From Verrucomicrobiota bacterium (GTDB taxonomy: Bacteria; Verrucomicrobiota; Kiritimatiellia; Kiritimatiellales; Pontiellaceae), in contig JAJRRI010000053.1 of NCBI GenBank assembly GCA_024279685.1, positions 1 to 51,708 on the forward strand: a stretch of DNA of 51,708 bases, read 5' to 3'. Within the stretch, counting starts at the first letter, position 1. Each line of letters begins with the position of its first letter. Under the pieces are notes generated by a model. That model was not told the origin of the DNA. It made no database searches and worked only from the letters and a program-made list of their open reading frames with translations. This document shows, piece after piece, positions 17,816-46,141 of this stretch. The position numbers and the translations under genes are program-made.

Positions 17816-18168
17816 TGGTGGAGGCGGGGGGAATCGAACCCCCGTCCGAATAAGAGTCACAACAGCTTCTACGTGTGTAGTCAGGCATTAAAGATTCGCC
17901 GCCTCCGCTGCCGCCTGTCTGGGCCACTTTGGTCGCTAGGATCCTGTTGATTCTTGCTCCTCCCCCCGCATCCCCGGGTTTGGCGCCAGCCTGTTATCGT
18001 CGCCTCTATCCCTTAACAGGCATCAGGGTAGAGACGTAGCGGAACTATGCCGCTAGTGCGTAACTTTCGTCTGCATTTATGGTTTTTGGACTCCTTTTTA
18101 CGAGGCCTGGAGACCAACCTCGACACGCCACTGAAGCTTCAACTTACCCGTCGAAACCAGTCGCCCCC
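17816..18168 (-). ncRNA. ssrA: Transfer-messenger RNA (tmRNA)
   Basis: This 353-base RNA rescues stalled ribosomes. The 5' end GGGGGCGACTGGTTTCGACG and 3' end CGGGGGTTCGATTCCCCCCG..CCA are the tRNA-like domain; acceptor arms GGGGGCG and CGCCTCC pair with one G-U. A tag frame about 100 bases in reads NADESYALAA then TAG, close to the Escherichia coli tag ANDENYALAA; the exact resume codon (AAT or the next GCA) is not certain. Pseudoknot arms are visible downstream. The CCA is encoded. A one-piece, not permuted, tmRNA. Confidence 0.95.
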
Positions 18169-20056: not shown

Positions 20057-20860
20057 CTAGAGTAATTCTCCACCCACGATCCCCTCTTCTTCGAGGGCTT
20101 CGATCCCGTCTTTCTCCGGCTCGCGCGGTTCGACCATAATAGTGCCGAAATGATCCTCCTGCACCGCCGCAATCCGGTTGAGCTTTATCAGTTCGAGCAC
20201 CGCAAGGAAAGTGCAGATAATCTCCTGCCGCGACTTCATGCCTGTAAATAAATCGGTAATGCTCAGCCGCTTCATCCTTTTCAGATTTTCGACGATATAG
20301 GTAATCTTCTGCGAAACGGTATATTCTTCCGCAAAAATTTCCTGCAGATCTTCCTCTTGCACCCGGCCCAACGCATCGTTCAACGATGAAATTAAATCGA
20401 AGATGCTCGCATCGCGCAAATCTACATCCGGAGGGGTGCCTAGCTCGACGTGCTCGCTCTCGCGGCCAAACACGTTTTCCATGTGTAGTTCGAGGTCTTC
20501 GAGGTGGTCGGCGGCGTCTTTAAATTTTTTGTATTCCACCAGCTGACGTACTAGATCCCATCGCGGGTCCTCCGCGTCCTCCTCTTCCATATCAGGCCGT
20601 GATTCTGCGGGAAGTAGCATGCGGCTCTTGATCAACATCAGCGTCGCCGACATCACAATAAAGTCGCCCGCAATATTCAAGTCGAGCACCTTCATCAGCT
20701 TGAGGTATTCCATATACTGGTCGGTCACCCGTCCAATCGGAATGTCATAAATATCCACCTCGTCCTTTTTGATCAGGTACAAAAGCAAATCCAGCGGGCC
20801 CTCGAACACTTCGAGCGTAATTTTGTAGTCGTCTTGAATTAAATCCATGGGGTTGTTCAC
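20057..20860 (-). CDS. scpA: Segregation and condensation protein A
   Basis: A 267-residue ScpA kleisin. The N-terminus carries the signature EVFEGPLDLLLYLIKKDEVD, and the C-terminal winged helix runs to about residue 250 (RQEIICTFLAVLELIKLNR). It bridges SMC heads and binds ScpB for chromosome compaction. The start may be GTG 20860 or the internal ATG 20848; AGGGA lies 3 or 14 bases before them. It is 14 bases upstream of scpB and 24 bases downstream of the restriction endonuclease gene. Confidence 0.92.
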   Translation of the reverse strand: MNNPMDLIQDDYKITLEVFEGPLDLLLYLIKKDEVDIYDIPIGRVTDQYMEYLKLMKVLDLNIAGDFIVMSATLMLIKSRMLLPAESRPDMEEEDAEDPRWDLVRQLVEYKKFKDAADHLEDLELHMENVFGRESEHVELGTPPDVDLRDASIFDLISSLNDALGRVQEEDLQEIFAEEYTVSQKITYIVENLKRMKRLSITDLFTGMKSRQEIICTFLAVLELIKLNRIAAVQEDHFGTIMVEPREPEKDGIEALEEEGIVGGELL

Positions 20861-20883
20861 ATTCCCTGTTAATAAAAATTAAA

Positions 20884-21786
20884 TTATATGCCCAGCACTC
20901 TCCGAACAGCATCATCTAAATCATCGCCTGATGGTAAATTGGATCCTCTGATAAAACGTTTGGAAAAATCTGATAAGGTAAATTTTAAACTTCGTTTAAA
21001 AATCAAATCCCGTTGTTCACCCGGTAGGGCTTCAGGAGACAGCCCATAGGTATGAACCGTAAGAATATCACTGGCTGACTTCCTTTTCCGCTGAATATCA
21101 CGCCCAATAACATCTTCGAATTTTTGGTACACGATATCAGGTAATATAAAATAAAGCCCATGACTCACCAGTGAAGAACGAGAATAGATCAGTCCCTTCC
21201 GAATCAGCTGAGGAATCAATCGTTTATGCACGTTTGCCCAATTCATTCCATGCTCGGAGGATGGTATGCTCGTTGTTGAAGCATCCACGTTTTTGTAGGC
21301 ATACCAACAATCTCGATAATTCCCCGTAATATCAATACTTTGCACCTCTACCCCAACGTACTCGATCAATTCGCCCTCCTGCACCTTGGCAAGCACCCAG
21401 TCCATGGACATATGCCCACCAATATTCACTTCTTTGCCTGAATTGTGTCCCAAGGCAACTACACAGGTTTCTTTTCGCTCCCGGACAGGAATAAATTCCT
21501 CGTAGGTAAAAAAATCAATCTCATCACCAAAAACCTCAGCAGAAACTTTTCGTAAGCAATTGTATTTATTCGCATACAACCTATTTGGACAAATAATACA
21601 GTCCCCATATGGGCTAGTTACACTACATGTTCCATAAACAATGCTCTTGTCGTGGTTCGTCTTAGTACAGGCCTTGTTAATGAATGGACATGCTTCCAGG
21701 TTCCAAAGGGAGCGGCTGGAGGAGCTCAAATCGGCAGGAGCGTATCCGAAGATTTCAACGAGATCCTTTTTGGGACGGTTAAGCAT
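20884..21786 (-). CDS. NotI-family type II restriction endonuclease
   Basis: A 300-residue protein with the NotI family N-terminus: VEIFGYAPAD, then cysteines 33, 40, 54, 63 and 66 (CPFINKAC, YGTCSV, CIICPNRLY), which in NotI bind iron. About residues 129-149 form the catalytic region, Asp in SMDWVL followed by VGVEVQS; as I recall, NotI also has E-x-Q in place of the usual E-x-K. The frame is intact. The ATG overlaps the methyltransferase stop by eight bases. The cleavage site cannot be deduced; an 8-bp GC-rich site is typical of NotI itself. Confidence 0.8.
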   Translation of the reverse strand: MLNRPKKDLVEIFGYAPADLSSSSRSLWNLEACPFINKACTKTNHDKSIVYGTCSVTSPYGDCIICPNRLYANKYNCLRKVSAEVFGDEIDFFTYEEFIPVRERKETCVVALGHNSGKEVNIGGHMSMDWVLAKVQEGELIEYVGVEVQSIDITGNYRDCWYAYKNVDASTTSIPSSEHGMNWANVHKRLIPQLIRKGLIYSRSSLVSHGLYFILPDIVYQKFEDVIGRDIQRKRKSASDILTVHTYGLSPEALPGEQRDLIFKRSLKFTLSDFSKRFIRGSNLPSGDDLDDAVRRVLGI

Positions 21787-22969
21787 AAAATACCTCTTTG
21801 ATCATTTGGTGGATTTCATCGCCAATCGCTTTTCCAAGCAATGGAGGAACTGCATTACCAACTTGTTCATACTGCTGGGTAACTGTTCCCGTAAAACGAT
21901 ACGTATCAGGAAAAGACTGAATTCTTGCCGCTTCGCGAATCGATATAACCCTGTCCTGAGTTGGATGAAAGAAACTCCCCCAATGAGGATCACACTTTGT
22001 TAATACAGTTGAACAGAGACCATCTGGAGAAAGCCTTCCATACCTTTTGGTATGATCGCTTCGCCGGGCGCGTTGAAGCCCTTTTGGCAATAGTTCAAAT
22101 GGCACGTCCCGCCAGCTACCACCTTGAGGGATATGCTTGAGTCGTTCTAGGTTGATTTTCGCCAGTCGATTACATTTATGGTTTTTAAGAGACGAGGATC
22201 CCTTTCTTAAGTATCGCTGATAGTCGCAGGACGGTTCAGAAGCATATTTCTGGTTTTCATTAACAACTTCGGGCGTAATTGCTGGAAGATCGGACATGGC
22301 ATCCCAAACCGTCGTAGGTTTTTTCAATTGACCACTAAATAACGGATCAACCTTTAAGCAGAGCGTTTTCGCGCCCGTAAAATTTGCGACGGCTTTCGCA
22401 TCGTATTGAGGCTGTGGGAACCGAATAGAAAATCCTACTTTTCTAATGCCAATAAATACCGTGCGGAAACGCATTTGCGGAACCCCGTAGTGACCCGCAA
22501 ACAGAATACGATGATCTACGCTGTATCCCAGCGTCTCCAGCTCCTTGTAAATTTGCTCCACTACGGTGCCTTTCCCCATGGAAATAATTCCGGGAACATT
22601 TTCGATCAGAATGGCCTTCGGCTTTAAACAAGAAACAACTCGGATAAACTCCTTGAATAAATGATTGCGTTCATCATCAAGAGATCGAATCGGAGCATTT
22701 ACAGAAAAACCCTGACAGGGTGGCCCCCCTGCCACTAAATCTACCTCCCCTTCCTTGACTCCTCAAAGAACCTTAATTTCCTCTTCTGGCACACCGCGAA
22801 TATCACCAGAAATCATCACCGCTTGTGGATGATTTTCTTGGTAGGTTTTCGCATAACAAGGAACCAACTCATTCGCAAGCACAGAGGCGAACCCTGCCAT
22901 GCGAAGACCGCAGGACAATCCTCCTGCCCCTGAAAATAAATCTACAACCTTGTACCTATCGTTCTTCAT
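21779..22969 (-). pseudogene. C5-cytosine DNA methyltransferase with in-frame TGA (broken or split)
   Basis: The frame from ATG 22969 (ribosome-binding site TTGGAG) has motif I (DLFSGAGGLSCGL), then II and III (ISGDI), and is broken by TGA at 22763-22765. The same frame resumes with motif IV, GGPPCQGFS, motif VI ENVPGI, VIII QMRFRTVFIG, IX and X (YEQVGNAVPPLLGKAI). Together about 395 residues, a normal size. A GTG at 22735 with GGGGAGG eight bases upstream could restart translation right at motif IV, giving a split enzyme as in some two-subunit C5 methyltransferases. It should protect DNA from the adjacent NotI-like nuclease. Whether it works as drawn is unknown. Confidence 0.8.
22763..22765 (-). 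other. In-frame TGA in the C5 methyltransferase
   Basis: TGA follows KVL and precedes GVKEGEVDLVAGGPPCQGFS in the same frame. A CGA to TGA change would explain it. The bases AAGGGGAGG after it form a strong ribosome-binding site for GTG 22735. Confidence 0.8.
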
Positions 22970-22972
22970 CAA

Positions 22973-23935
22973 TTACTCCAAGCCGACCGCTTGCCGGGCA
23001 TTTTTAAGTGTTTCACGGGCGAGTACTGAGGCCTTTTCAGCCCCTTGACGCAACACGTCATTCACATAATCCATATCGGCGGAAAGTTCGGTGCGTTTCT
23101 CGCGCATCGGCCCGAAGTGCTCATTCATCTTCTCAAGCAGTGCCGTCTTGGCATGTCCATAACCCATACCGCCCGCGCGGTAGCATTCCGCCAGTTCCGC
23201 CTGTTCCTCTGCGGAGGCAAAAAGTGTATAGAGCGCATAGACGTTGCACGTGTCTGGATCCTTTGCATCTTCCAGCTCCTTACTATCGGTCAATATTTTC
23301 ATGACCCGCTTCTTGAGCGGCTTGCCTTCGTTAAAAATTTCAAGGGTATTGCCGTACGACTTCGACATCTTCTGCCCATCGACGCCCGGCACCACCGCCA
23401 CATCCTCACGGATCGAAGGCTCGGGAATGGTGAATACTTCACCAAAAGCGTTATTAAAACGAATCGCTAAATCCCGGGTCACTTCCACATGCTGCTTCTG
23501 GTCGCGGCCGACCGGAACCACGTTGGAGTTGACCGCCAGAATATCGGCCGCCATCAGTACGGGATAGGCAAAAAGGCCGTGCGAGGCCGCCATGCCCTTC
23601 GCGACCTTATCCTTATAGGAGTGGCAACGTTCCAACAGGCCCATCGGCGTCAGCGTCGAAAGTAACCAAGCCAGCTCGTGAACCTCCGGCACATCGCTCT
23701 GGCGATAAAATGCCGTTTTATTCGGATCAATCCCGCACGCCAGAAAGTCTAAAGCCACATCCATCGTCATTGAACGGAGAGCGGCAGGATCTTGCACCGT
23801 AGTCATTGCATGATAGTTCGCGATAAACAGATACGCCTCGCCTTGCTCCTGTAGCTCGATCGCCGGCTTCATCATCCCGAAATAGTTTCCGATATGTAAT
23901 TTACCCGACGGCTGTATGCCCGAAAGTATTCTCAT
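22973..23935 (-). CDS. trpS: Tryptophanyl-tRNA synthetase
   Basis: A 320-residue class I synthetase. It begins MRILSGIQPSGKLHIGNYFG with the HIGH-like HIGN, and carries KMSKS in GQKMSKSYGN at about residue 195. It charges tRNA-Trp. ATG 23935 follows GGAGTGAATTTA; a longer frame to 23974 is not supported. The methyltransferase ATG begins three bases after this stop, so the restriction-modification pair is transcribed from the trpS side. Confidence 0.95.
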   Translation of the reverse strand: MRILSGIQPSGKLHIGNYFGMMKPAIELQEQGEAYLFIANYHAMTTVQDPAALRSMTMDVALDFLACGIDPNKTAFYRQSDVPEVHELAWLLSTLTPMGLLERCHSYKDKVAKGMAASHGLFAYPVLMAADILAVNSNVVPVGRDQKQHVEVTRDLAIRFNNAFGEVFTIPEPSIREDVAVVPGVDGQKMSKSYGNTLEIFNEGKPLKKRVMKILTDSKELEDAKDPDTCNVYALYTLFASAEEQAELAECYRAGGMGYGHAKTALLEKMNEHFGPMREKRTELSADMDYVNDVLRQGAEKASVLARETLKNARQAVGLE

Positions 23936-23991
23936 TAAATTCACTCCAAACTCTTTACCCACAAACAGGAGCAAGTTTTACCCGTTATCCA

Positions 23992-24309: not shown

Positions 24310-24384
24310 TGGCTCCTGCGGTAGGACTCGAACCTACAACCAAGTGATTAACAGTCACCTACTCTACCATTGAGCTACGCAGGA
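24310..24384 (-). tRNA. tRNA-Asn (anticodon GTT)
   Basis: The minus strand folds as a tRNA: acceptor arm TCCTGCG with CGCAGGA, D-arm GCTCAATGGTAGAGT, anticodon loop CTGTTAATC with GTT, and T-arm GTAGGTTCGAGTCCTAC. The discriminator G is followed by an encoded CCA. Confidence 0.97.
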
Positions 24385-25521: not shown

Positions 25522-27168
25522 CTATTCCCGTATTTCGGAAATTTGGCCATTAAAGGCTTCCACTACCGTTTTCACAACGGGATTCGCATACCATTTCGCT
25601 TCGCCGGTGTGACTCGCTGCAGGATTGTTGCTCGCCGTCGGAAGCACAGGATTCGCCGATAACGACGGGCGTTGATCGGGCTTGAGGGGTTCGAACACCA
25701 TACCGAGAAGGCGCCCCACACGTTTTTCGACCTCTCGAGCCAGCGCAAGTTTAATCCGGGGGTTGTCGAAACGCTCCAATTCGTTGGAAAATTCGGGATC
25801 GAATCCTACCACGAGGTGCGTGGCATCTGTACGTAGCGGAACGGTATCGAGAAAATAACGACGGGAAAGCGGGTCGGCTTTCGAAATATGGGCAACGATA
25901 TCGGGCCAATTTTTCAGCAGGAGGGGGGCCTCATCCCCGGGCGATGGCTTTTTTTTTTGCGGCGCGGTGGAGTTATCTTTCGAAGGCGAGTCGGCAATTA
26001 CAGCGAAGGCTGGCGCGCCAGATTTAAAGTTTTTTTTTAGCTCAGCCACCTGTTTAAGCAGCTCATTGAGCGTTACGGTTTCGGCGGCGCGCGAACAGCG
26101 AATCAGGCCGGTTTCAAGCAGGGTTTTCTTCGAGAGAGCATACCGCATGCGACCATCGGTTTCGACCAATGCATCGATAATGCGGAGTACACGACCGGCC
26201 TCAGTTTCGGCGGCCAGGTCCGTATAGAACTTCATTTGCGCCTCTGGCAGTTCGAGGACGGCTGCATCTTGTCCGGCATAAAGTACAATGAGCAAATTTC
26301 GGAAGTGTTCCATCAATTCCATCACCACGCGCTGGAGGTCTTTTCCAGCACGGTCCATCTCGGCAATGATATTAATGAGGCTGGGGATATCAGACTTCAG
26401 GATGGCGACGGACAGATTTTCAAGGACGTGGCGCGACACCAGGCCAAAGACAGTAAGTACATCGTCTTCTTCAATCGCTTTTCCTCGGAAGGAGATAATT
26501 TGATCGAGCGCGGATTCAGCATCGCGCAAACCGCCTTCGGCACCGCGTGCGATGGCCAGCAAAGCGTCTTCGGAAATGGTAACGCCCTCTTCGTCGCACC
26601 CTTTCCGAAGGCGATCGACGATGTCCTGTACGGAGATTCGACGGAGGTCAAAACGCTGACAGCGCGAGAGGATGGTGGGTAAAACCTTGTGTACGTCCGT
26701 CGTGGCAAAGATAAATTTAACGTGCGGCGGCGGCTCTTCGAGCGTCTTGAGAAGCGCATTGAAGGCCTGTGTCGAGAGCATGTGTACTTCGTCGATGATA
26801 TAGATTTTAAATAGGCTGCGGGAGGGAACATAGCGAGCGTTGTCGCGAAGGTCGCGGACTTGATCCACCCCGTTGTTGGAGGCTCCGTCGATTTCAATGA
26901 CATCGAGATTGTTCCCCGCCATCACTTCTTTGCAGGAGTCGCATACGTCGCATGGATAAGGCGTTGGACCTTTCTCACAATTGAGTGCCTTGGCCAGAAT
27001 TCGCGCGGAGGTCGTTTTTCCAATACCGCGGGAACCAATGAAGATATAGGCGTGCGCCACCCGGCCCGTCTCGATGGCATTGGTCAGTGTTCTAGTGACG
27101 TGTTCCTGCCCGACTACATCAGCAAATTGCTGCGGGCGCCATTTTCGTGCTAATACTTCATAAGCCAT
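25522..27168 (-). CDS. dnaX: DNA polymerase III subunits gamma/tau
   Basis: A 548-residue clamp-loader ATPase. It has Walker [10 protein letters not shown] (about residue 45), the zinc cysteines CDVCDSCKE (about 74-82), DEVHML Walker B, and the SRC sensor ([11 protein letters not shown]). The AAA core and oligomerisation domain run to about residue 370; the rest is the tau-type tail. A run of ten A residues at codons for QKKKPS (about residue 404) could allow slippage and yield a short gamma form. The SRP RNA lies upstream and ybaB and recR downstream. ATG 27168 follows AGGA. Confidence 0.95.
25949..25958 (-). other. A10 slippage site in dnaX
   Basis: The dnaX coding strand reads CAA AAA AAA AAG, ten A in a row, and contains the heptamer A AAA AAG used in Escherichia coli dnaX. 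Shifting by -1 gives AAA then GCC ATC GCC CGG GGA TGA, a stop within six codons; the +1 frame also stops soon. A stem GCCATC / GAT..GGC follows. A product of about 410 residues would match a gamma subunit. Confidence 0.6.
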
Positions 27169-34689: not shown

Positions 34690-35445
34690 ATGAATGAGAC
34701 CGTCAACATCGTTACGCTGAAATGGGGCACCATGTACGGCCCAGAATATGTTAACCGCCTCTATCACGGCGTAAAGCGGCATCTCAAACGCCCGTTCCGA
34801 TTTATCTGTTTCACGGAAGACACGACCGATGTCGAAGAAGGGATCGAGTGCCTCGACTTTCCCGACTTTCCAGTAAACCCCCTCTTTGTGTGGAGTGCGT
34901 GGCGCAAATTTAGCCTTTTGCGCGACGACGTTCCTTTTGACGGGCTCTCAATGTTCCTTGATCTCGATGTACTGATCACTGGGTCGCTTGACAAATTTTT
35001 TGAGTTTGGCCCGCCAGAGGATTTCCCGATTATCCACAACTGGGTTGAACCCCGAAAAACCCTCTTTCGTAAAGCCCCCGACATTGGAAATTCCTCCTGC
35101 TTCCGCTTCATGGCAAAACAACATTCCTACGCCTACGAACGGTTCATCGCCGAAGACGAAGCCATGGTCGCCGCCTATCCCACCGAGCAAGCTGGCCTGA
35201 CCGACACCGTCCGCGAATTCAAAACCTACTGGCCTGACGAGTGGGTGCGTAGCTTCAAGCGCCACTGCCAGCGCTCTTTCCCCATCAACCGCCTTCTCCC
35301 TGCCAAATTTTGCCCCGAAGCCAGCATTATCGCCTTTCATGGAAAGCCTAATCCCGATCAGGCCATCGCTGGGTTCAAAGGCACAAAACCCCACCACTAC
35401 GTTAAACCCACCGAATGGGTAAAAACCCAATGGATCGACCTGTAG
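34690..35445 (+). CDS. Glycosyltransferase, GT8-like with DXD motif
   Basis: A 251-residue protein with a GT-A core. FLDLDVLITGSLDKFF at about residue 95 holds the DXD metal motif, and SACIIAFHGKP-type C-terminal patterns (SIIAFHGKPNPDQA) are seen. It is likely a retaining GT8-type glycosyltransferase, but the family assignment is tentative. ATG 34690 follows GAGG. It is the first of a run of close-spaced polysaccharide genes. Confidence 0.7.
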   Translation: MNETVNIVTLKWGTMYGPEYVNRLYHGVKRHLKRPFRFICFTEDTTDVEEGIECLDFPDFPVNPLFVWSAWRKFSLLRDDVPFDGLSMFLDLDVLITGSLDKFFEFGPPEDFPIIHNWVEPRKTLFRKAPDIGNSSCFRFMAKQHSYAYERFIAEDEAMVAAYPTEQAGLTDTVREFKTYWPDEWVRSFKRHCQRSFPINRLLPAKFCPEASIIAFHGKPNPDQAIAGFKGTKPHHYVKPTEWVKTQWIDL

Positions 35446-45304: not shown

Positions 45305-46141
45305 ATGAAGCCCCCCTCCCTCAGCCTTATTATTATTTCATACAACAGCGCCGGCATTATTGAGCAATGCCAGCGAGAGTTACTGGATGCCATGCCCTTC
45401 CCCACTTTGATCGTGGATAATGCCAGCCCCAACCAAAGCACCACGGTCTTAAAAAAAGAGTTCCCAAGGGCGGAAATTATCGCTCTAGAACAAAACATCG
45501 GCTATGGCCGCGCCGCCAATGTGGGACTACGAAAAATAAAAACACCGTATGCCCTATTGCTCAATCCCGATCTGACCGCCCCCTCCTAGCAGATTAACAA
45601 ACTACTCAATCACGCTCAAAACGATACCTCCAACACGGCGATCTGGGGGCCGGCCTCCCAGAAAAAGGATGCCACCGGTGAGTCGCCGCAAAGCGTCGAA
45701 TGGGTGAGCGGGTGCGCCATGCTCTTCGACATGAATAAACTGAGAGAGATTGGCTTTTTCGATGAAAATATATTCCTCTTTGCCGAAGAGACCGAACTCT
45801 GCGAACGCACCATTAAAGCAGGATATGAAATTAAGCTCTGCCGCGATGTCTATTTCAACCACCTCGTGGGTCAGGCCTCACCGCCCAATCCCAAAATAGA
45901 GTATATGAAATGGTGGCACTTTGGCTGGTCGCAATGCTATCTCATGACCAAACACAACCATACCACCTGGTATAAAAATCCGCTTCGAAAATGGATCAAC
46001 TACCGCATCCATAGCTTCACCTCCAACTCGTCCACCAAACGGTTAAAATGGGGAGCAAAAGCCGATGGAGCACGCGCCTTTATCCGCAGAGAAAAAGCCT
46101 TTGATAAAAATGGAAACGCCAAACAATCCAACATTGATTAA
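45305..46141 (+). pseudogene. GT2 glycosyltransferase interrupted by in-frame TAG
   Basis: The frame from ATG 45305 to TAA 46141 encodes about 278 residues of a rhamnosyltransferase-like GT2: LIIISYNSAGIIEQ, LIVDNASPNQS, RAANVGLRKI, LLLNPDL, then GCAMLFDMNKLREIGFFDE. It is broken by TAG at 45587-45589, after LTAPS and before QINKLLNHAQND. The downstream half has a possible GTG start at 45704 that lacks the N-terminal nucleotide-binding region. A CAG to TAG change would explain it. Confidence 0.8.
45587..45589 (+). other. In-frame TAG in the GT2 gene
   Basis: TAG separates LLLNPDLTAPS from QINKLLNHAQND in the same frame. The residues on both sides fit one GT2 domain. Confidence 0.8.

Follow-up and report, generated by a model that had tools for sequence, protein, structure and literature searches.

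Natural two-chain C5-cytosine DNA methyltransferases have been described: the break in M.AquI and M.EcoHK31I is close to the target-recognition region or behind it and not before motif IV, and the known natural splits, like the best artificial split of M.SssI, fall somewhere from motif VIII to the end of the recognition region (PMC3404938). Among the type II restriction endonucleases NotI has a Gln in place of the usual Lys and an Fe-Cys4 site (PMC4081073). In the window, by which we mean the whole analysed stretch of DNA (51,708 nucleotides), a NotI-family endonuclease gene lies next to a methyltransferase frame in which an in-frame TGA is present. The features of this locus are listed below.

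21779..22969, minus strand: C5-cytosine DNA methyltransferase (MTase) frame, 396 codons plus stop, with one in-frame TGA
22763..22765, minus strand: the in-frame TGA at codon 69, after motif III and before motif IV; relatives have Leu or Phe here; consensus error most likely
20884..21786, minus strand: NotI-family type II restriction endonuclease (REase), 300 aa, frame without stop
22733..22750, minus strand: SD-like element, GGGGAGG (22750-22744) followed by an in-frame GTG (22735-22733)
approx. 20870..22972, minus strand: inserted restriction-modification (R-M) cassette, between trpS (22973-23974) and scpA (which starts at 20860)

The initial annotation had described this locus as an intact NotI-like nuclease beside an interrupted C5 methyltransferase, and both identities, together with the assignment of the two genes as an R-M pair, were confirmed by the family matches and by the conserved pairing. 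The endonuclease frame is indeed intact: the open reading frame 21786..20884 on the minus strand has no internal stop over its 300 aa. Its product matched the PADLOC model REase_II PDLC03465 over the full length (436 bits) and the Pfam family NotI (PF12183) with 27.4 bits, above the curated cut-off of 22. Asp129, Glu147 and Gln149 align with Asp160, Glu182 and Gln184 of NotI (structure 3bvq), which we take to be the catalytic residues of that enzyme. The same three residues and Cys33, Cys40, Cys54 and Cys66 are invariant in ten sequences (the REase and nine homologues), and judging from these residues the protein would have the variant PD-(D/E)XK active site, with Gln for Lys, and the Cys4 metal site that define the family. 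Plasmid homologues carry the annotation 'NotI family restriction endonuclease'; the plasmid and phage matches are less than 40% identical to the REase. No relative was found when viral_contigs was scanned with the REase, and a second NotI-family gene was not encountered.

The TGA of the MTase frame is also where it had been reported, and it is the sole stop of the frame, with motif III (GDIR, residues 55-58) on one side and motif IV (GGPPCQGFS, residues 81-89) on the other. When the TGA is read as one residue, the MTase matches the Pfam family DNA_methylase over profile positions 1-323 of 324 with 227 bits; beyond the TGA the frame stays open in the zero frame, with its motifs intact and no further lesion. 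A comparison with close relatives, which the initial annotation had proposed as a check, was made with eight homologues, and none has a stop over the compared stretch: this applies to five relatives with a complete MTase (63-71% identical), which also have the same gene order, and to three more distant MTases (48-51% identical). At codon 69 Leu stands in seven of the eight and Phe in one, and the CGA (Arg) formerly considered for this site is not suggested by them. There is no obvious backup enzyme, the only other C5 MTase found being about 25% identical. This second MTase (529 aa) adjoins three genes that match A, B and C of the PADLOC candidate defence system PDC-M33 (whole locus: L078, G000:C26, 11127-16295, minus strand).

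On the minus strand trpS (stop at 22973) is followed by the MTase frame from ATG 22969 and then by the REase from ATG 21786. In the window the start of the REase overlaps the stop of the MTase (ATGCTTAA); in the relatives shown the two genes abut or overlap. The same order, with the MTase just upstream of the REase, was observed in six of six genomes of other genera (REase identity 61-70%); five of these supplied the complete MTases compared above, and in the sixth, L006, only the end of the MTase is on the contig. An endonuclease gene is thus found beside a methyltransferase gene as a conserved pair, as in type II R-M systems. In all 16 same-genus relatives in which trpS was found, trpS and scpA are directly adjacent with a spacing of about 20-180 nt, and the 2.1 kb R-M pair was not found between them in any of these 16. 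The GC3 of the cassette is 0.40-0.42 versus 0.62-0.64 in the flanking trpS and scpA, and no mobility gene adjoins the cassette. On this comparison of gene order and composition the pair is best read as a type II R-M cassette, horizontally acquired and inserted after trpS. In some members of a sister family the trpS-scpA gap is about 0.8 kb. The wider surroundings of the cassette include a tmRNA gene (window 17816-18168, minus strand; tag ADESYALAA) and a tRNA-Asn gene (window 24310-24384, minus strand).

A second interrupted gene is present in the window, a GT2 glycosyltransferase frame (45305-46141, plus strand) whose only in-frame stop, a TAG at 45587, falls within the Pfam domain; a sequence error of the same kind is the probable cause. 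Because of this second case 778 kb of the draft (178 contigs, 94% complete), the window included, was sampled for interrupted genes. The following further interruptions were found in the draft.

metG (methionyl-tRNA synthetase), L045 = G000:C1, 9552, minus strand: in-frame TGA inside the Pfam domain; Trp in relatives
thrS (threonyl-tRNA synthetase), L098 = G000:C61, 11803, minus strand: in-frame TAA inside the Pfam domain; mostly Glu in relatives
iron alcohol dehydrogenase (Fe-ADH), C11:9603: in-frame TAG inside the Pfam domain
alpha/beta hydrolase, C18:12294: in-frame TAG inside the Pfam domain
ABC-F protein, L183 (G000:C160), near 35,355: in-frame TAA at the start of the second ABC domain; outside the 778 kb sample
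typA, L182 (G000:C157), near 26,600: frameshifted, the C-terminal half in another frame; outside the 778 kb sample

Frames of RHS-repeat proteins with an in-frame TAA and TAG were also seen (L083, G000:C31, 11353 and 12441, minus strand); these stops could be real decay or errors.

Both metG and thrS occur in one copy in the whole genome, and at both sites sense codons stand in the relatives, which are up to 97% identical. Since both genes are single-copy and essential, their stops are almost certainly absent from the living organism, with the qualification that the genome is 94% complete and therefore unassembled second copies are not fully excludable. It should be emphasized that strong proof of error comes from metG and thrS alone, and that each of the other interrupted genes may be a true pseudogene. 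As a lower bound, six stops inside domains were counted in the 778 kb, and by extrapolation about 20 domain-internal lesions would be expected in the whole draft. Stops in ABC domains (1 of 27 here versus 0 of 87 in two finished relatives) are consistent with this, although not significant by themselves. A codon-usage scan for split genes did not discriminate (11 candidates here versus 9 in the finished-genome control), and a homology census of 778 kb here against 800 kb of the genome G024, with no stops here in 53 alignments, was too small; for these reasons we have relied on the single-copy essential genes.

Beside what was observed, namely the anatomy, homology and insertion of the pair and the equivalent stops that essential genes of this draft contain, we infer with good confidence that the draft consensus has a wrong base, or the base of a minority variant, at the TGA (22763-22765). 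Whatever introduced the stops into metG and thrS would account for this TGA too, with no special biology needed. Error had been one of the fallback options named in the initial annotation, and it is the best supported one, given the equivalent stops in single-copy essential genes. The MTase is then probably whole in living cells, where it would be made as a single chain from ATG 22969 and, as its Dcm-type family suggests, would protect the recognition sites of the host, while the REase, as a NotI-family PD-(D/E)XK enzyme, would cut unmodified invading DNA; both enzymes would be active. The intact REase, which should need a working MTase, agrees with a consensus error, and the otherwise intact MTase frame, its motifs and the predicted catalytic residues of the REase are as would be expected if the R-M system works.

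The initial annotation had favoured a two-part methyltransferase like M.AquI, in which residues 1-68 (motifs I-III) end at the TGA, translation restarts at GTG 22735 and the two chains assemble and protect the genome. The GGGGAGG that had prompted this proposal is present, it ends 8 nt upstream of the in-frame GTG, and the reading frame starting there encodes 318 aa; moreover, C5 MTases tolerate splitting, with M.AquI and M.EcoHK31I as natural two-chain enzymes (PMC3404938). Nevertheless the element itself is the sole positive evidence for what is a possible arrangement, and it is most probably coincidental, formed by the codons of the conserved GEVDLV stretch. At the site of the GTG the five relatives, none of which has an interrupted frame, show GTA, GTT, GTT, TTA and CTT, and neither GGGGAGG nor GGAGG is found in any of them, so that the second start is not conserved in close homologues. 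The element is also unremarkable: within the 44.6 kb of the window that are coding there are 13 cases of GGAGG at a distance of 5-11 nt upstream of an in-frame start codon (ATG, GTG or TTG) internal to a gene. Furthermore, a split between the TGA and the GTG would drop residues 69-78 from both chains, including Gly74, Glu75 and Asp77, which are three of the 114 invariant MTase columns; residues 69-78 are the immediate lead-in to the strand predicted for motif IV at 78-81 (structure model of modest quality, pLDDT 72). In an enzyme of the M.AquI type all motifs and connecting residues would be contained in one or the other chain, but here these three would be in neither, and the break would lie outside the interval from motif VIII to the end of the recognition region where the known natural and best artificial splits are placed (PMC3404938). 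A two-part enzyme is therefore unsupported, and we regard it as very improbable.

We consider it slightly less credible still that the TGA is read through by a near-cognate tRNA, a suppressor tRNA or selenocysteine insertion to yield a low level of full-length MTase. The zero frame does continue free of lesions past the TGA, and with Leu or Phe in the relatives the enzyme might accept the insertion of a hydrophobic residue; however, TGA is a normal terminator here, which ends 17 of the 45 genes of the window, and the scanned contigs contain no suppressor anticodon. No tRNA-Sec above the cut-off was found in the sequence scanned, where the best matches checked were tRNA-Ser, tRNA-Leu and tRNA-Arg, and selenocysteine at the TGA was rejected on this ground. 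As the stops of the other genes are also TAA and TAG, one suppressor would not be sufficient, and recoding explains none of them, since TAA, TAG and TGA are all represented and TGA also serves as an ordinary terminator. A +1 frameshift at CTT-TGA, a site which we would liken to that of prfB, was rejected as well: the homology lies in the zero frame, and a TAG closes the +1 frame seven codons on. The least improbable of the alternatives, though still unlikely, is that the TGA is real and the MTase is dead, a nonsense mutation having recently hit an R-M system that is in decay. The cell would then survive because the REase is hardly translated once translation has stopped early, or because it is otherwise silent. 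Recently acquired genes often decay, and with the overlap of the two genes the translation of the REase could be reduced as well by a nonsense mutation upstream of it. On the other hand the lesion is single in an otherwise conserved frame, the frame and all the catalytic residues of the REase are intact, neither an obvious backup MTase nor a second NotI-family gene was found, and the background of spurious stops already accounts for the TGA.

For the interpretation of stops this draft is to be treated as error-prone. A more general lesson of method is that, where a draft genome shows an apparently lethal combination of genes, it should be compared with the background of stops that the draft has in its essential genes. 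A real stop in an enzyme that still worked would mean a new split point for C5 MTases, which the evidence makes unlikely.

Compared with the known systems, the MTase shares with the Dcm-type C5 MTases of type II R-M systems (PF00145, TIGR00675) a full-length match, all the main motifs and the fixed pairing with an endonuclease; all of the relatives compared are without the stop, whereas the deposited sequence of this MTase has one in-frame TGA. With M.AquI and M.EcoHK31I it has in common the enzyme class and, in the deposited sequence, the presence of two open reading frames. M.AquI, however, is split inside the variable region and the small chain of M.EcoHK31I holds only motif IX (PMC3404938), while here the break precedes motif IV and leaves a gap of ten residues. 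The REase shares the Asp/Glu/Gln active-site residues, the four cysteines, a full-length PADLOC match and a Pfam match over the cut-off with the NotI family; NotI itself differs, with a chain of 383 aa versus 300 aa and a very low sequence identity. The interruption is probably not real, and the R-M system of this locus adds a further member to a family that is already well populated.
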